From positions 1 through 64,000 of the forward strand of contig NZ_JAKZEY010000001.1 of NCBI RefSeq assembly GCF_022808955.1: a stretch of DNA of 64,000 nt, read 5' to 3'. Shown here in pieces: positions 35,554 through 43,875 of this stretch. This DNA comes from Anaerococcus sp. AGMB09787. GTDB taxonomy: Bacteria > Bacillota > Clostridia > Tissierellales > Peptoniphilaceae. The position numbers were made by a program, and so were the translations under genes. Numbering within the stretch: the first letter of the stretch is position 1; every line of letters starts with the position of its first letter. Under the pieces are notes generated by a model, which saw nothing but the letters and a program-made list of their open reading frames with translations, was not told where the DNA came from and made no database searches.

Positions 35554-37542
35554 ATGAACAAAGGAAATCAAGGCAAGAAACCCCTATTATATTACTGGTT
35601 GATTGCCATTATTATATTTATAGTAATACACTTTGCTCTAAGTCCTATAGCAGGAGGAGAAGTCTCTAAGGAAGTAAGTTACAGTCAATTTGTTGATATG
35701 ATAGAAAATGACCAAGTAACTGAAGTATCAAGAGATGAACAGCAATATACCTTCAAAGCCAAGGTAGATAATGAAGAGAAAGTATTTACAACAGGCTTGT
35801 GGTTTGATAGTGACATCACAGATAGACTTCTTGAGGCAAAGCAAAGAAACGACAAATTAATATTTAGCCAAGAGATAAAAACAAGGATGAACCCTTACCT
35901 ATCACTCTTTATCTCATCTATCTTGCCTTTACTTTTGATTTGGGTAATCTTCTACTTCGCATCAAGGTCGCTCACAAAGACCATGGGTGGCAGAGGTGGA
36001 GCCGACTTCATGAACTTCGGAAAATCCAATGCAAAAGTCTATGTAGAAAACAAAACAGGCAAGACCTTTAAGGATGTAGCCGGTCAAGAGGAAGCCAAGG
36101 ATAGCTTAAACGAAGTAGTAGACTTCCTCCATAGCCCAGGCAAGTATAAAGAAATAGGAGCTAAGGTACCGAAGGGAATCCTCCTAATTGGACCTCCAGG
36201 AACTGGTAAGACCCTACTAGCCAAGGCAGTAGCAGGAGAAGCCAAAGTTCCATTCTTCTCAATATCAGGTTCAGAATTTGTTGAGATGTTCGTAGGTATG
36301 GGAGCAAGCAAGGTTCGTGACCTATTCAAACAAGCCAAAGAAAAAGCCCCATGTATAGTATTCATTGACGAAATTGATGCTATAGGTAAAAAACGTGACG
36401 TCTCAGGATATTCAGGAAATGATGAGAGGGAACAAACCCTAAACCAACTCCTAAACGAAATGGACGGATTTGATGCGACAGAAGGAGTAGTCCTATTAGC
36501 AGCAACCAACAGACCAGAAATCCTAGACCCAGCACTAACAAGGCCAGGGCGTTTCGATAGGAGAGTAGAAGTTGAACTACCTGACCTAAAAGGTCGTGAA
36601 GACATCCTAAAAGTTCACGCCAAAAACATAAAACGTGAAGAGGACATTGACTACAACGAAATAGCCAAGAGAACAGCAGGAACATCAGGTGCCGACCTTG
36701 CAAACATAGTAAACGAAGGTGCCTTGAGAGCTGTAAGAGAAAATCGTAATAAGCTAACCCAAGCAGACCTAGAAGAATCAATCGAAACAGTAATTGCAGG
36801 TCAACAAAAGAAAAATGCTGTAATAAGCGATGATCAAAAGAGAATCATAGCCTACCACGAAGTAGGCCACGCCCTAGTAGCAGCAATTCAAACCCAAAAA
36901 ACCCCTGTAACAAAAATCACCATAGTACCAAGAACTGGTGGCGCCCTTGGTTACACAATGACAGTAGACAAGGACGAAAAATATATAATGACCAAGCAAG
37001 AACTATTTGATGAAATAGTAACATTTACAGGTGGTAGGTCAGCAGAAGAGCTAATCTTCAATACCAAGACAACTGGAGCTTCAAACGATATAGAAAGAGC
37101 TACAGCCCTTGCTCGTAACATGGTAACAATCTATGGTATGGATGAAGACTTCGACTTCATGCAACTAGAACAAATCGAAGGAAGATACCTAGGTGGCCAA
37201 AGAAGAAGCATAGTAAGCGATGGAACAGGCAACAAGGTTGACCAAAAAGTTGCCCAAATCATATCTAAGGCCCACATGAGAGCAATCGAGATCCTCAAGG
37301 AAAACATAGACAAACTTCACGAAATATCAGACTTCTTACTAAAAGAAGAAACAATAACAGGTGAAGAATTTATGGAGATCCTAAACAGGGGAAAAGAAGA
37401 TCCAATCATAGATGATAACGACAACGACGAAGAAATAAAGCCAATAGGCGAAGATGAAATAGTAAACAAAAGAGATATCCCACCAGTAGACGATAGTCCA
37501 ACTGATCTGGGAGAAAATATAAGTAAGACCCAAGCTAGATAA
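35554..37542 (+). CDS. ftsH: ATP-dependent zinc metalloprotease FtsH
   Basis: A 662-residue membrane AAA+ protease. Two N-terminal membrane helices (about 12-30 and 110-132) flank an extracytoplasmic domain. The AAA module has [17 protein letters not shown], the pore FVGMG, Walker B IVFIDEID and the [22 protein letters not shown]. The protease site is YHEVGHAL, with a later zinc-ligand Asp region. It degrades unassembled membrane proteins and regulators. The C-terminal tail is acidic. Confidence 0.97.
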
Positions 37543-37557
37543 AGGCTTGGGTTTTTC
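37528..37557 (+). terminator. ftsH terminator overlapping the stop codon
   Basis: ACCCAAGC / GCTTGGGT stem with an 8-base loop, then TTTTTCT. The 5' arm lies in the last codons of ftsH. Confidence 0.85.
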
Positions 37558-37601
37558 TATGGGTTTATTAAGAAATTTTCAATTTATAAGTCTTGATATC
37601 C

Positions 37602-38315
37602 TTATTTGAAGTAGATCATACGCATTTCATCGACGTCCTTGATAGTCGTGTCCATTTCGAAGACTTCTTTGAAGGTTTTTTGGGTGAGGACTTCCTTGGA
37701 GCAACCTTCCTTGTATATTTTTTTGTCATTTATTAAAAGGATATGGTCGGCGAAGTGTTCTATGAGGCCGATTTGGTGGAGGCTTATGAGGGTTGTAAGC
37801 CTTAGGTCCTTGGAGAGGTCTCTTATTATTTTCATAATATCGTATTGGTTTTTGAGGTCTAGGGCTGATACTGGCTCATCTAGGAGGAGGACCTCAGGGT
37901 TTTTGATGAGGGCCTGACCTATAAAGACCTTTTGGACCTCGCCACCGCTTAGTTTATCTATGGACTTATCTCTAAAAGCATGTAGGTCTAAGAGGTCTAG
38001 GATTTTCTCGACATCTTCTTTGTCTTCCTTGCTAATTCTCAATGACAGGTCCTCTACCTTGCCAAGCAAGATAGTTTCATAGACAGAAAATCTTATCTTG
38101 GTCTTTATATTTTGGTTTAGGTAGGAGATCCTTGGGGAAGAGGTGATTTTCCCATCATAGGACTTAAGGCCTGCTAGGGCATTTAGGATGGTGGACTTGC
38201 CAGAGCCATTTCTTCCCATAAGGACATTTATCTTGGATGCTTCTAGGTCAAAGGATATATCATCTATTACATTTTTATCTTCATAGGATATGGTTAAATG
38301 CTCTGCCTTAATCAT
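37602..38315 (-). CDS. FecE-type ABC transporter ATP-binding protein, probable nickel/metal-chelate uptake
   Basis: A 237-residue ATPase of the iron-siderophore/cobalamin importer class. It has Walker A GRNGSGKSTIL (about 34-44), the signature KLSGGEVQKVF (about 122-132) and Walker B VLLLDEPVSALD (about 143-154). It overlaps the permease gene by 8 bases and has AGGAGG 4 bases upstream. It is the last gene of the lar-linked operon, so nickel or a nickel chelate is the likely cargo. That is inference from context; iron or cobalamin cannot be ruled out. Confidence 0.8.
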   Translation of the reverse strand: MIKAEHLTISYEDKNVIDDISFDLEASKINVLMGRNGSGKSTILNALAGLKSYDGKITSSPRISYLNQNIKTKIRFSVYETILLGKVEDLSLRISKEDKEDVEKILDLLDLHAFRDKSIDKLSGGEVQKVFIGQALIKNPEVLLLDEPVSALDLKNQYDIMKIIRDLSKDLRLTTLISLHQIGLIEHFADHILLINDKKIYKEGCSKEVLTQKTFKEVFEMDTTIKDVDEMRMIYFK

Positions 38316-39267
38316 ATTTCCTCCTTAGTAAAAAGATAAATATCAAAGGAAGGCCTAAAAGGGATGAGATGATTCCTATAGGTAAGATGGATCCTGGTCT
38401 TAGGGCCTTTGATAGAAGGGAGGATATTGTAAGAAGTATCCCACCAAGGATAGCTGCTCCTCCTAGATAGTACCTCTGATCTTCTCCAAAGGTCTTTCTT
38501 GCTAGGTGGGGAGCAATAATTCCTATAAAGCCGATGACCCCTGCAAAGGATACGGAAAGGGCACTAAGGACTGAGACTATTATGAAGGATTTAATCTTGA
38601 GGGTCTTTACGTCAACTCCTAAGGCCTTGGCCCTCTCTTCACCAAACCTAAGGGCTGTTAGCCTATGGCTATCCTTAAAGACTAGGATAAAGGCGAGTAT
38701 TAGAACAAGTCCTAGGAGGATAATTTGCTCCCACTTGGTGTTAGATACTGATCCAAAGAGCCAAAATACTATAGAAGATAAGGTTTCATCTGTGGATAGG
38801 TATTGGCTAAGGCTAGTTAGGGAATCAAAGAAAAATTTGACCGCAATACCAGCAAGGATCATGGAAGAAGTTTGGGCAAAGCTCTTTTTTGAGAAAAAGT
38901 ATACAAAGGCTATGGCGATTAGGGCAAAGCTTAGGGCTGCGAAGGGGATAATGGTAAGGGAAAATCCCAATAGCAAAAATAGGGCTGCCCCAAAGCCTGC
39001 AGCAGAGCTTACCCCCAGGGTAAAGGGACTAGCTAGGGGGTTATCTAATATAGTCTGCATGATAGCCCCACTAAGGCCCAAGATCATCCCCACGATAAGG
39101 CTTGTAGCCATTTCTGGTAGTCTTATATTAAAGAGGATGGTCCTTTGGAGGTCGCTAAGGGCTAGGATATCAGATATCCTAAGATCACTTGCCCCCACAA
39201 AGAGGTCCCAAAACCCTATAAGGATAGTTATAATAACTAGGCTTAAGATCTTTTTATTCTTACTCAT
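38308..39267 (-). CDS. FecCD-type ABC transporter permease
   Basis: A 319-residue permease of the BtuC/FecCD family with about ten hydrophobic segments and the family motifs GLSGAIMQTILDNPLASPFTLG and GVIGFIGIIAPHLARK. I chose the ATG at 39267, overlapping the binding-protein gene by 8 bases (TATGAGTAA). A start at 39291 would lie further inside that gene and lack a Shine-Dalgarno. It forms the channel for the adjacent lipoprotein and ATPase. Confidence 0.85.
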   Translation of the reverse strand: MSKNKKILSLVIITILIGFWDLFVGASDLRISDILALSDLQRTILFNIRLPEMATSLIVGMILGLSGAIMQTILDNPLASPFTLGVSSAAGFGAALFLLLGFSLTIIPFAALSFALIAIAFVYFFSKKSFAQTSSMILAGIAVKFFFDSLTSLSQYLSTDETLSSIVFWLFGSVSNTKWEQIILLGLVLILAFILVFKDSHRLTALRFGEERAKALGVDVKTLKIKSFIIVSVLSALSVSFAGVIGFIGIIAPHLARKTFGEDQRYYLGGAAILGGILLTISSLLSKALRPGSILPIGIISSLLGLPLIFIFLLRRKYD

Positions 39268-40399
39268 AGGATGCAAACCATGTTCCCTCAAGCTCTATTG
39301 GCATAAAGAGGTCATAGAATTCTTTGAGGTCAGCCTCAGGGTCTAGGTCCTTGAAGGCTTCTGGGTCAAAGATCTTGGCAAGTCTCTCGTAGGAATAGAA
39401 GTCGCTCATATCCCTTGCCATATTATGACATAGGGCATAGATTTTTTTGTTTTGGATAGCAGATAGCTTATCCCAGCCAGTCCTAGTCATGTATTTTGAG
39501 AGTTTATCCCTAATTTCATTATCGCTTACATCAAAGCCCATATGGAGGCTATCTTCCCTATCTAGCCAGGATGATCCAGTTATAACTATGATATCAGGGT
39601 CCTTGCTTAGGACAAATTCCTCAGCTACAGGGCTTGCCTCTTCATCTCCAAGAACATCACCTGCTATATTGTAGCCTCCTGCATCGTTAACCATCTTACC
39701 CCACATTTTTTCATTGCCGTAGGAATTGTCATAGGCAAGCTCACCACTATAACCAAGTTCTATGTAGACAGAAGGCTTATCTTCCTTATCTTTTATAGTA
39801 TTTCTTACTAGGTCTGTCTTTTCCTTGTAGAAAGAAATTAACTTTTCTAGGTTTTTATCAAGACCTGTTGCCTTGGCTATGATTTCTGTTGACTTTATGT
39901 GATCATCAAAGTCTTGGTTATGATAGTTGATATAAATTATTGGTATATCGATCTTATCTTCTATGGAATCAAGCTGAGCCTTATAGGATACAGGGGCTAT
40001 GATGCCATCAGCTCCTATGGATAAGATGTCTTCAACTGAGAAGTCATTATCAGCAAAGTCTGCTACTCTTTTTATCTTTTCAAGTTCTGGGATTTTCTCT
40101 ACTAGCCTGGTATATAAATCGTTCCTATTAATCTTAAGTCCATCATCCATAGCAGCAAGCTTGGTATGGAAGTTATCCTTGTCTAGGTAAAGCATGGTCA
40201 TAAGGGGACCACCTGAGCCTGACCCTTGGACTATGATATTTTCTAGGGGCTTATCTAGGCTAATCTTGCGGCCGAGGATATCTTCGATTTCGATTGAGCC
40301 TTGGGCATCTTCACTTTCTTTGTTGGTAGTAGATGAGCAAGATGTTATTATAAAGACAACAGCTAGCAGTAAAAATAATTTATTCAGATTTTTTTTCAT
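39260..40399 (-). CDS. ABC transporter substrate-binding lipoprotein (TroA/FecB-like fold)
   Basis: A 379-residue lipoprotein with a type II signal and lipobox ITSC (Cys about 21). The periplasmic-binding fold contains VEDILSIGADGIIAP and DPDIIVITGSSW, typical of metal-chelate/cobalamin binding proteins. The Met, His and Trp residues in its C-terminal half could contact a metal chelate. The ATG at 40399 has GGAG six bases upstream and overlaps the end of larC by 20 bases, so the transporter is firmly joined to the lar genes. The cargo is inferred to be nickel. Confidence 0.8.
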   Translation of the reverse strand: MKKNLNKLFLLLAVVFIITSCSSTTNKESEDAQGSIEIEDILGRKISLDKPLENIIVQGSGSGGPLMTMLYLDKDNFHTKLAAMDDGLKINRNDLYTRLVEKIPELEKIKRVADFADNDFSVEDILSIGADGIIAPVSYKAQLDSIEDKIDIPIIYINYHNQDFDDHIKSTEIIAKATGLDKNLEKLISFYKEKTDLVRNTIKDKEDKPSVYIELGYSGELAYDNSYGNEKMWGKMVNDAGGYNIAGDVLGDEEASPVAEEFVLSKDPDIIVITGSSWLDREDSLHMGFDVSDNEIRDKLSKYMTRTGWDKLSAIQNKKIYALCHNMARDMSDFYSYERLAKIFDPEAFKDLDPEADLKEFYDLFMPIELEGTWFASYE

Positions 40400-40814
40400 A
40401 CTCTTCTCCATATATTTTATCTAATTTTTTGAAGGCTTCTTTTATTGAAATATTGTCAGTTTTGGCGAGGTCTAGGGCTGATTGGTATTCTGGGTAGACG
40501 TAGGTTTTATCCTTGTGGAAGACCATCTTGTAGGTTAAGCTTATATCCTTGTAGTCAATATTTACAAAGTCTCTCTCTAGGATATCCCTAGACACTTCAA
40601 ACTTTCTAATCCCTATGCTTGTAGAGTTTTCGAAGATTATATCTTCAATAGTTTCGAGATTTTCTCTATCGCATAGGACAGAAAGCTTGTAGGCAGGGCG
40701 GTTTTTCTTCATATAGATAGGGGTATAGTAAACATCCCTAGCATAGTCCATAAGCTTATCCATAAGATAGCCTAGGAGCTCTCCACTACTATCATCTATA
40801 TTTGTTTCAGCCAA
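40380..40814 (-). CDS. larC2: LarC C-terminal part (LarC2), read by -1 frameshift from larC1
   Basis: A 144-residue frame holding the C-terminal half of the nickel-insertion protein LarC: AETNIDDSSGELLGYLMDKL and YYTPIYMKKNRPAYKL match the family core. The only nearby initiation codon is a TTG at 40814 with no good ribosome binding site. A -1 slip on the A9 run at the end of larC1 would join the frames as ...GKKK-SLILAETNIDD..., restoring the normal LarC sequence. The 5' and 3' frames therefore probably encode one fused LarC, with LarC1 as the unshifted product. Confidence 0.85.
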   Translation of the reverse strand: MAETNIDDSSGELLGYLMDKLMDYARDVYYTPIYMKKNRPAYKLSVLCDRENLETIEDIIFENSTSIGIRKFEVSRDILERDFVNIDYKDISLTYKMVFHKDKTYVYPEYQSALDLAKTDNISIKEAFKKLDKIYGEEYEKKSE

Positions 40815-40816
40815 GA

Positions 40817-41656
40817 TTAGGCTTTTTTTTTACCCTTAACTTCCATAACTCTCAAGATATTGGTAGACTTTTCAAAGTCCTTGTTACCTGCTCCAAGTCC
40901 TATCCTACCTATAGAAAATTCTCCTAGGGTATCTCCCTTATTGAAGTACTTAACAAGGGCCATGCCTGTTGGTGTAATGTGTTCACCATATTCGTCTATG
41001 ATGGATAGGCTAAGGTCGCTATCTCTAAGGATATTGGCAACTGCTGGTACAGGGACAGGCATATAGCCATGGGCACATTTTTGGAGGCCTACGCCCTCAT
41101 AGAGCTTGGAGAAATAAATATTCTCAACGCCTAGGTCTTCTAGGAGGACACAGGTACCCACTATATCGATTATGGAGTCGACTGCCCCTATCTCGTGGAA
41201 ATGGACTTCGTCCTTAGCTATACCATGGGCCTTGGATTCGGCTTCGGCTATGATATCAAAGATTCCCAAGGCATCGGTCTTGACCCTATCTGATAGGGAG
41301 GCAGAATTGATGATATTTTCTATGTCCTTGATATTCCTGTGGACATGGTTATGGTGGTGGTCGTGATGATGGTCATGGATGTGTTCGTGGTCATGGTGGT
41401 CTTCATGACTATGTTCATGGTCATGGTGGTGATGGTGTTGATGAGAATGCTCATGGTCTTCTCCCTCTAGGATAACATCAAAGTTATAGGCATCGATGCC
41501 ATTTTTCTTGACCCTATCAAAGACTAGCCTGTAGCCGTCTATCCCCAAGGCCCCTATGGCTTCTTCTAAGACTTCCTTAGATGCTCCTAGGTCAAGTAAG
41601 GCTCCTATAGTCATATCTCCTGCAATTCCTGAATACATTTCAAAATATAAGTCCAT
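40817..41656 (-). CDS. larC1: LarC N-terminal part (LarC1): nickel pincer cofactor CTP-dependent nickel insertion protein
   Basis: A 279-residue frame with the LarC N-terminal signature YFEMYSGIAGDMTIGALLDLG. A strongly His/Asp-rich metal-binding insert follows at about residues 68-106. HEIGAVDSIIDIVG and the THE-TPTGMALVKYF region come next. LarC inserts nickel into the pincer nucleotide with CTP. The frame ends KGKKKA-stop just after the slippery A9 run. The stop codon of larB overlaps this start by one base, so it is coupled. Confidence 0.88.
   Translation of the reverse strand: MDLYFEMYSGIAGDMTIGALLDLGASKEVLEEAIGALGIDGYRLVFDRVKKNGIDAYNFDVILEGEDHEHSHQHHHHHDHEHSHEDHHDHEHIHDHHHDHHHNHVHRNIKDIENIINSASLSDRVKTDALGIFDIIAEAESKAHGIAKDEVHFHEIGAVDSIIDIVGTCVLLEDLGVENIYFSKLYEGVGLQKCAHGYMPVPVPAVANILRDSDLSLSIIDEYGEHITPTGMALVKYFNKGDTLGEFSIGRIGLGAGNKDFEKSTNILRVMEVKGKKKA
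40823..40831 (-). other. Slippery A9 run for -1 ribosomal frameshifting in larC
   Basis: On the minus strand GGT AAA AAA AAA GCC TAA is the larC1 frame. A -1 slip within the A run reads ...AAA AGC CTA ATC TTG GCT GAA, giving KSLILAE, which fits LarC. A local AGCC/GGCT stem lies next to the run, and a longer AGCCTA/TAGGCT pairing with a GGAG/CTCC inner stem is possible about 45 bases on. A known parallel is the frameshifted larC1/larC2 of Lactiplantibacillus plantarum. Confidence 0.75.
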
Positions 41657-42402
41657 TATTTCTCCTCTATAAGTTTATTTATTTGGCAGGCAGCATAGGC
41701 TGCTCCGTAGCCATTGTCGATATTTACAACTGATATTCCTTCGGCACAAGTTGAAAGCATGGTCAAAAGGGCGCTTACCCCCTTAAAGGATGCCCCATAG
41801 CCAACGGAAGTTGGAACGGCTATGATTGGCTTATTGACAAGTCCTGCTATGACAGTACCTAGGGCGCCCTCCATGCCGGCTATGGCTATTATGACATTGG
41901 CCTTTCTTATTTCATCGATTTTGTTAATGAGCCTATGGAGGCCAGAGACACCAACATCATAGTGCCTATCGACCCTTGCTCCAAAAAATTCTGCTGTTAT
42001 GGCAGCTTCTTCTGCTACAAAGAGGTCTGCAGTCCCCCCTGTGCAGATGGCAATCCTTCCTATTTGCTCCCTTTCTTCAAAGTCTAGGGAGATAATCCTT
42101 GCGACCTTGTTGTAGGTAACCTGGTCAATCTCTTTTTTTACTAGCTTATATTGCTCTTCGCTGCACCTGGTTCCTATTACGCTTTGCCTTCTCTCGTAGA
42201 AGGCTTTAAAGATTTCAATTAGAGCAAAGTCTTCCTTTCCCTGGCAGAAGATGGTCTCAGGAAATCCCCTCCTATCCTTCCTTTGGAAGTCAAGCTTGGC
42301 TATATCAATATCCTTAAAGTTAAAGTCCTTGAGGTAGGCTAATCCCTCATCTATGGACATGATTCCGGCCTTTATTTTTTCTAAAAATTCTCTATCTTTC
42401 AT
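41656..42402 (-). CDS. larB: Nickel pincer cofactor biosynthesis protein LarB (NaAD carboxylase/hydrolase)
   Basis: A 248-residue protein of the AIR-carboxylase-like LarB family. The C-terminal half has GMEGALGTVIAGLVNKPIIAVP, SVGYGASFKGVSALLTML and NIDNGYGAAYAA, which form the carboxylase core. In LarB the enzyme carboxylates nicotinic acid adenine dinucleotide and releases AMP, giving the biscarboxylic pyridinium mononucleotide. The ATG at 42402 overlaps larE by 4 bases (ATGA); an in-frame ATG at 42414 is the alternative. Its substrate NaAD connects it to the NAD pathway. Confidence 0.9.
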   Translation of the reverse strand: MKDREFLEKIKAGIMSIDEGLAYLKDFNFKDIDIAKLDFQRKDRRGFPETIFCQGKEDFALIEIFKAFYERRQSVIGTRCSEEQYKLVKKEIDQVTYNKVARIISLDFEEREQIGRIAICTGGTADLFVAEEAAITAEFFGARVDRHYDVGVSGLHRLINKIDEIRKANVIIAIAGMEGALGTVIAGLVNKPIIAVPTSVGYGASFKGVSALLTMLSTCAEGISVVNIDNGYGAAYAACQINKLIEEK

Positions 42403-43253
42403 TGGGCCAACCATGGGTTAAGTTCAACCTTATCCTTATCTTCTAGGACTTCATCCATTGACCCTGACCTGTAGCCTTCTAGGTCAAGGTTTATATAGGT
42501 AAAGCCAAGGTCTTTTAGCCCCCTAGTGATGGTGTCGAGATTTTCCATAACTATAGGGAAGTCCTTCCTTTCGACTTCGATCCTTGTATTATCTCCATAT
42601 AGCCTAATCCTTACGTTCTTGATGCCTAGATCCTTAATAAGGGCCTCCCCCTTATCTATAGCATCGAGCATCTGGGTGTTGATTCTACTATTGTAGGGAA
42701 ATCTTGTTGCAAGGCAGGGAGATGATGGTCTCTTGTAGACTGATATGCCTAGTTCTTTGGCATAGTCCCTTACCATTTCTTTACTAAAGCCCGCTTCCTT
42801 CAAGAGGGAAACTACGCCCTTGTCGTGGAGGGCCTTGAGTCCTGGTCTAAAGACCTTGTAGTCATCTAGGTTTGACCCATCAAGGACATACCTATAGCCT
42901 AGCTTATCCTTTAGCTTGAAGGCCTCTTCAAAGAGGAAGCTCTTACAATGGTAGCACCTGTCTATGGGATTATTGAGGATAGCCTCATTATCAAAGACAG
43001 ATATATCTGCCTCATAGAGTTTAACCTTCATTTCCCTAGCGAGGTTTTGGGCATTTTCTAGGTCCCCATTTGGACTTGTCTCTGTCTTATAGATTATAGC
43101 GACAATATCGTTTTCGTCTTTCCTATACAAGCTTGCAAGTTTTAGAATTAGAGATGAGTCGACTCCACCAGAGAAGGCAAGGACAGCTCCCCCCTCCAGG
43201 TGATCTCTTACAAGCTGGTTTAATTTTTCTTTCTTACTTTCGTAATCTTCCAT
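42399..43253 (-). CDS. larE: ATP-dependent sulfur transferase LarE, three-cysteine type
   Basis: A 284-residue PP-loop protein with SGGVDSS at residues 28-34. Cys 180 in RPSSPCLATRFPY is the counterpart of the sacrificial sulfur donor Cys 176 of L. plantarum LarE. It also has a CYHC pair at residues 100 and 103. Three-cysteine LarE proteins can bind a [4Fe-4S] cluster and may turn over catalytically. It adds the two thiocarboxylate sulfurs of the pincer cofactor. The ATG at 43253 has AAAGGG upstream. It is the first gene of the lar-transporter operon. Confidence 0.9.
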   Translation of the reverse strand: MEDYESKKEKLNQLVRDHLEGGAVLAFSGGVDSSLILKLASLYRKDENDIVAIIYKTETSPNGDLENAQNLAREMKVKLYEADISVFDNEAILNNPIDRCYHCKSFLFEEAFKLKDKLGYRYVLDGSNLDDYKVFRPGLKALHDKGVVSLLKEAGFSKEMVRDYAKELGISVYKRPSSPCLATRFPYNSRINTQMLDAIDKGEALIKDLGIKNVRIRLYGDNTRIEVERKDFPIVMENLDTITRGLKDLGFTYINLDLEGYRSGSMDEVLEDKDKVELNPWLAQ

Positions 43254-43299
43254 ATTTACCCTTTCTAATATAAACAAAATAAAAGGGCTTGCTAAAATC

Positions 43300-43326
43300 C
43301 ATTAGCTCCATTACATAGATCTAATG
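43300..43326 (-). promoter_or_regulatory. Spaced inverted repeat at the lar operon promoter
   Basis: CATTAG-N15-CTAATG, perfect 6-base arms, about 50-75 bases before larE. It overlaps a candidate promoter on the minus strand (TTGTTA, then TGTAAT with a 19-base spacer). Widely spaced palindromes are typical of NikR-like nickel repressors, but no such regulator gene is in the window. Confidence 0.4.
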
Positions 43327-43452
43327 ATTTACTTTAACAAACCTTCATGATTTTTTACTAAATTTTACAGCTTCATGCTTATTTTATAATAGCACAAAAA
43401 AAATTTATGGTCAATAAAATTATGTGTTAGAATAGTAACTAAGGAGATGGAT

Positions 43453-43875
43453 ATGAATATAGTAGTTGTAGATGGCCAAGGGGGATCAATCGGTGCCTCT
43501 TTGGTAGAAAAAATTAAAAATAGAAATAAGAGTGTTAAGGTCTGTGGCTTGGGTGTTAATTACTTTGCCAGCAAGGCCATGAAAAGATCTGGGGCAGATA
43601 TAACAGCCACAGGGGAAAATGCCATAAAGGTCAATGCCAAAGACTGTGACTTTATCCTAGGGACCACAGGAATAATGATAGCAAATTCTCTCCAAGGGGA
43701 GATTAGCCCAAAGATTGCCAAGGCCTTAGCCAAGTCAGATGCCACAAAAATTTTGATTCCCTTTGATTGTTCCAACACAATCATCATAGGAAGCTCGGAT
43801 AAGAGCCTAGAAGAAAACATAGACAGGGCTGTGGATAAACTCTTTGAACAAATGGCAAATAAAAAAGCCTTATAA
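43453..43875 (+). CDS. DUF3842 family protein
   Basis: A 140-residue small Rossmann-like protein with the family N-terminus NIVVVDGQGGSIGASLVEK and later FDCSNTIIIGSSD. The ATG at 43453 lies 6 bases after AAGGAG; a first ATG at 43447 abuts it and is unlikely. It runs divergently from larE, sharing a 199-base promoter region. A weak promoter (TTATGG, 17 bases, TAGAAT) lies about 25 bases before it. The biochemical role of DUF3842 is unknown; the GGSIG loop could bind a nucleotide. Confidence 0.8.
   Translation: MNIVVVDGQGGSIGASLVEKIKNRNKSVKVCGLGVNYFASKAMKRSGADITATGENAIKVNAKDCDFILGTTGIMIANSLQGEISPKIAKALAKSDATKILIPFDCSNTIIIGSSDKSLEENIDRAVDKLFEQMANKKAL

Follow-up and report, generated by a model that had tools for sequence, protein, structure and literature searches.

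The larC gene of Anaerococcus sp. AGMB09787 is written in two overlapping frames, and comparison with its relatives argues strongly for a single gene whose expression involves a conserved -1 recoding event. We are confident that some recoding event would join the two halves, and we lean, by a modest degree, towards the ribosome as the main slipper at the site. The Anaerococcus larC site is a new, well-conserved case of the recoding already described for the DUF111 family, and one suspicious gene break has led to a genus-wide recoding site. For annotation pipelines this means that larC should here be called neither a pseudogene nor two genes.

The larC junction in the window

In the window, meaning the whole stretch of 64,000 nucleotides that was analysed, larC lies on the minus strand as larC1 (41656-40817) followed, in the -1 frame, by larC2, which extends to 40380. 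The larC1 frame (40817..41656) is the zero frame; it encodes the 279 amino acid N-terminal part of LarC, including a His-rich stretch, and ends GGT AAA AAA AAA GCC TAA, with the TAA stop at 40817-40819. The larC2 frame (40380..40829) encodes the C-terminal part and is without an ATG start ahead of a conserved NIDD motif. The putative slip site (40823..40831, minus strand) consists of nine A's, preceded by a T at 40832, that are read AAA AAA AAA in the zero frame and contain A_AAA_AAA, which is an in-frame X_XXY_YYZ heptamer as expected of -1 programmed ribosomal frameshifting. The run also has the length, about 8-9 residues or more, expected of programmed transcriptional realignment, with nine A's in 16 of 17 Anaerococcus genes and ten in one. 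Upstream, the -1 frame is closed right at the run by a TAA made of the T and the first two A's, while downstream of the nine A's it reads KKSLILAETNIDD, and a -1 slip on A_AAA_AAA would give exactly the continuation of the LarC family. The frames, the nine A's, the end of larC1 and the junction peptide had been described in the earlier note, and the sequence confirms them. Nine-A runs by themselves are not unusual, a non-A base followed by nine A's being found 33 times in this genome of 2.0 Mb; the argument for the larC site rests on its position, frame and conservation and not on the rarity of such runs.

The two halves are LarC, both scoring above the family cut-offs of PF01969 and of the NCBIfam models. 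The larC1 frame matches PF01969 (positions 1-234) with 277.7 bits (cut-off 22.1, E 2.1e-82) and the LarC1 model TIGR00299 with 194.4 bits (cut-off 90, E 1.1e-57), and the larC2 frame matches PF01969 (positions 248-373) with 134.1 bits (cut-off 22.1, E 9.2e-39) and the LarC2 model NF052512 with 124.2 bits (cut-off 50, E 2.8e-36). On the solved LarC structure 12bi (414 residues) the best-matching stretch of the larC1 piece covers residues 86-250 and the larC2 piece covers 266-401; LarC2 by itself has been solved as structure 6bwo. The junction thus probably falls in a link between domains.

Conservation of the split

The source genome groups with Anaerococcus, and LarC was found in 17 of the 31 Anaerococcus genomes. 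Sixteen of these 17 are split at the identical spot, T-A9-NNN-TAR, where exactly one codon separates the run from the stop, a TAA or a TAG. The T precedes the run in all 17 although its codon encodes six different residues (G, P, C, S, T or D), and the protein sequence therefore does not explain its fixation; the corresponding log10 P of -7.45 assumes independent species and is overstated, the species being related. Similar purifying selection acts on the larC1 and larC2 halves, with dN/dS of 0.05-0.13 in both for six pairs of species (A. marasmi is a member of one pair). This conservation and the similar selection strongly support the view of the earlier note that the slip is functional and not an error. 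That note had also proposed to compare relatives for eight or ten A's giving one continuous frame: the nine-A run holds in 16 of the 17, and the exception, A. marasmi (G007), does have ten A's and a single frame of 432 amino acids. Either one base changed recently or the run was miscounted, since the gene keeps the T and a now idle TAA context and the species stands alone within the clade of A9 split species in the tree.

Beyond the genus, LarC was found in 57 of 130 genomes in the family search and in 95 of 249 in the order search. Adjacent out-of-frame halves occur in 38 genomes of the order, and all 38 junctions were read: 37 are -1 transitions at runs of 9-11 A's, and the remaining one (G227) is +1 or -2 at eight A's. 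Our full table of 54 split sites comprises 16 from Anaerococcus, 5 others from the same family, 17 others from the same order and 16 selected sites of the class, the last taken from 8 places among the matches listed for the 176 LarC-bearing genomes of the class search and from a set of 20 genomes. Left out were loci with no upstream half (L038, L039), with the second half not found (L040, L151, L152, L156) or with a masked N at the junction (L150), as well as, being unresolved, L186, L191-L194, L196 and L198-L201. The run counts nine A's at 40 sites, ten at seven, eleven at one, eight at one and seven at five. The shift is -1 at 53 of the 54 sites even though run phase and flanking codons vary among them, and the single exception, the eight-A site of G227 (L148), may reflect either an error of assembly or another kind of slip. 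An in-frame A_AAA_AAN heptamer is present at every one of the 54, which is automatic in any phase for runs of at least nine A's and not so for the five A7 sites. The preceding T is found at 45 of the 54 and is thus fixed in Anaerococcus, not everywhere.

The five A7 sites (L155, L158, L181, L183 and L184) form one family that reads TTA or TCA AAA AAA TAG, with the stop directly after the heptamer. A C-rich/G-rich inverted repeat is visible just downstream in all five, with a predicted hairpin in four, and this family is a different design of the same recoding.

Split and fused layouts of larC interchanged repeatedly. In a quick tree of 99 rows (54 split, 45 continuous) with SH-aLRT support only, 14 state changes are needed, at least nine of them forced by well-supported branches; the count cannot tell gain from loss, and the 45 continuous genes are a fetched subset. 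Even two genomes of one genus, G085 and G086, differ in their state. Such a natural series of sites (A7, A9, A10 and A11, in relatives with either layout, sometimes inside a single genus) should be useful for parting ribosomal from transcriptional slippage. In four genomes of the order (G039 with locus L038, G041 with L039, G126 with L040, and G170 on contig C36), distant LarC2-like and then LarC1-like halves are found in reversed order as apparently separate genes, so that the two halves can occur apart, at any rate in distant homologues.

How the halves could be joined

If the ribosome is the agent, most ribosomes would read GGT AAA AAA AAA GCC TAA and release LarC1, while a fraction would slip back by one base with two Lys-tRNAs on A_AAA_AAA and continue in the -1 frame. 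The product of the slip would be full-length LarC, a nickel insertase whose action completes the nickel-pincer cofactor used by LarA. We infer from the comparison of sequences that slippage would occur in this organism and that the ribosome would be its agent, and the same applies to the slip rate and to any role of LarC1 alone. The A run by itself seems sufficient for the slip, because no conserved downstream RNA structure was found.

The earlier note had pointed to downstream pairing of AGCCTA with TAGGCT and of GGAG with CTCC, which is possible in the source sequence and is not conserved. The stem is complete only in the source species; 128 of 170 cells are pairable across the 17 species, but a shift of the 3' arm by one position leaves 114 pairable. 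Among the 17, the second outer-helix pair fails in 8 and the last inner-helix pair in 14. RNAalifold gave no consensus structure (energy 0.0) for the 60-90 nt downstream in the 17 Anaerococcus, the downstream fold z averaged +0.21 with a standard error of 0.22, and Rfam returned no match at E 0.5 in 37500-43600. A stimulatory downstream structure, common though not obligatory for -1 programmed ribosomal frameshifting, was not found in these searches. In the 54-site set the mean downstream energy z is 0.42 for the 16 Anaerococcus sites, 0.09 for the 32 other sites with at least nine A's, and -0.45 (standard error 0.41) for the five A7 sites, whose flanks have a G+C content of 0.52 versus 0.38 and 0.31. 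A single A9 larC site, L140 (G157), has a downstream z of -4.58, the lowest of the 54. Upstream of the run, GGAG lies within 25 bases in 7 of the 17 Anaerococcus species, and no fixed block resembling a ribosome-binding site was found among them.

The reading frames could also be explained without any slip. A homopolymer sequencing error or a decayed gene is conceivable in that long A runs invite errors and the run of A. marasmi counts ten, but 16 species agree on nine A's in separate assemblies and both halves are under strong purifying selection, which makes this explanation extremely improbable. We also consider it very unlikely that LarC1 and LarC2 are two separate associating proteins, with larC2 translated from a weak start close to the overlap through translational coupling. 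NCBIfam does hold separate LarC1 and LarC2 models, LarC2 alone has its own structure, the reversed halves in four genomes of the order are apparently separate, downstream initiation was reported alongside frameshifting in some experiments (PMC3711429), and larC1 and larC2 products with neighbouring locus numbers are reported from an Anaerobutyricum proteome (PMC7702098), which fits two proteins or one fusion. Yet the earlier note had described larC2 as having no proper start, and this stands: a start codon (ATG, GTG or TTG) ahead of NIDD is absent in 14 of the 17 Anaerococcus and is a TTG in the other three, one being the source genome, and the next ATG comes only at codon 16-37. Furthermore, coupling does not require the conserved A9, the preceding T or the stop, and in A. 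marasmi and many other members of the order LarC is encoded as a single fused chain.

If the halves are joined by slippage, RNA polymerase may be responsible instead of the ribosome: slipping on the nine A's, it would produce some transcripts with ten, translated without a shift into full LarC, while A9 transcripts would give LarC1, as in the T. thermophilus dnaX kind of slippage. We regard this as a serious rival, though the less likely of the two. The run is kept at nine or more A's in 48 of the 53 -1 sites across three phases, where the heptamer needs only seven; this suggests that the length of the run itself counts, as it does in polymerase slippage. The hybrid of about 9-10 bp and the efficient slippage reported on nine A's in bacteria (PMC5009743; PMC1088944) agree with a polymerase, as does the absence of conserved structure. 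T. thermophilus dnaX likewise has nine sense-strand A's with a stop close by and two products according to the same two sources, with the difference that its zero frame leads to the full product, whereas the full product of Anaerococcus larC needs the shift. Insertion is moreover said to be favoured over deletion on A runs, which would give the observed -1 direction (PMC6260861), and a polymerase bias of this kind could yield the same skew among orthologous sites. Against the polymerase stands the direction itself, 53 to 1, since orthologues are described as sharing one shift direction when the ribosome frameshifts, which need not hold for transcriptional realignment (PMC3711429). So does the existence of A7 sites, the E. 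coli enzyme being reported to slip less on A than on T and to need more than seven A's (PMC6260861). Nor is there any sign of a cost of long A runs in the window, where the 58 coding frames hold 6 runs of at least eight A's against 6.4 in synonymous shuffles, and 3 of at least nine against 1.5, so that such runs are not depleted. The exclusive use of AAA as Lys codon in the run was tried as a discriminator between ribosome and polymerase and fails: tRNA-Lys(CUU) is present beside tRNA-Lys(UUU), so AAG could be poorly slippery too, and one further conserved Lys column (C2 codon 129) is likewise AAA in 17 of 17. The ribosome is favoured because the direction is fixed despite differing run phase and flanking codons, and because the A7 sites hold the heptamer although seven A's are short for polymerase slippage. 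Since 5 of the 45 continuous larC genes fetched still carry at least nine A's at the corresponding spot, one could also imagine a two-way slippage switch, in which gain or loss of a single A turns A9 split alleles of this lineage into A10 fused ones and back, each kind yielding a mix of full LarC and the His-rich LarC1, the latter acting alone as a nickel store or brake, with the ratio set not by the ribosome but by the polymerase through its nine-A hybrid length; we think this unlikely.

According to the earlier note, the larC gene of L. plantarum is known to use a frameshift, and Anaerococcus larC is the same gene with the same LarC1/LarC2 split. In the part of PMC3496567 that names larC1 and larC2 as two L. 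plantarum genes, frameshifting goes unmentioned. Among the papers listed by the literature searches, none dealt with larC frameshifting under that name and none with Anaerococcus and ribosomal frameshifting. LarC belongs to the Ni_insertion family PF01969 (PMC13329287), which is DUF111 (PMC8170915), and DUF111 was one of four new families for which programmed frameshifting was confirmed in the GeneTack study of Antonov et al. (2013), where frameshifting reached as much as 39% in an E. coli reporter (PMC3711429). That reporter measured protein and, as described there, does not separate ribosome from polymerase; the main text of the study contains no occurrence of Anaerococcus. The GeneTack DUF111 cluster resembles our case in protein family and in having two annotated ORFs with a fusion existing elsewhere, and the conserved -1 transition at an A-rich heptamer that marks DUF111 recoding is likewise found here (-1 in 53 of 54, heptamer in 54 of 54). 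A magnesium chelatase cluster of the same study, distinct from LarC as a protein, is also a metal chelatase gene with a -1 shift on an A run, and its efficiency rises with the run, from 10% at 7 A's to 40% at 9 and 63% at 11 (PMC3711429).

Nickel-pincer context and neighbouring genes

Directly upstream of larC1 on the minus strand lies larB (41656..42414; NF033503, E 1.5e-87), preceded by larE (42399..43277, minus strand; TIGR00268, E 8.7e-79), which encodes the sacrificial sulfur transferase. With LarA-family proteins also in the genome, larC stands in the setting expected of the nickel-pincer nucleotide pathway. All 17 Anaerococcus loci have a larB match in the fetched larC flank. Of the 31 Anaerococcus genomes, 13 encode LarA-family proteins, and every one of these is among the 17 that bear LarC (chance 1.2e-5 if independent), the four with LarC and no LarA-family match being G008, G009, G012 and G023. 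Given this co-occurrence and the two LarA-family matches in the source genome, the cofactor is probably made and used in the source organism. The gene raises the question of why a nickel insertase stays half-truncated, and it is speculation that LarC1 alone, with its His-rich stretch, has a role of its own.

An FecCD-type ABC transporter (binding lipoprotein, permease and ATPase; 37602-40411, minus strand) follows larC; its gene for the binding protein, in the longest frame (start 40411), overlaps with larC2 at the latter's end. At 13 of the 17 Anaerococcus loci, the flank of about 1.5 kb fetched with larC encodes a related binding protein. The substrate of the transporter may be nickel, free or in a complex.

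A second T-A9 site (L245; G000:C18:7873-7882, minus strand) turned up in the source genome when 27 of its 30 fetched A9 loci were examined; here a 137-codon frame runs into the nine A's and a 79-codon frame leads onward. The two frames hit phrog_709 and phrog_3033, neither of which has a known function, and Pfam gave one match below cut-off for one piece and none for the other. The site resembles a prophage tail-chaperone frameshift pair.
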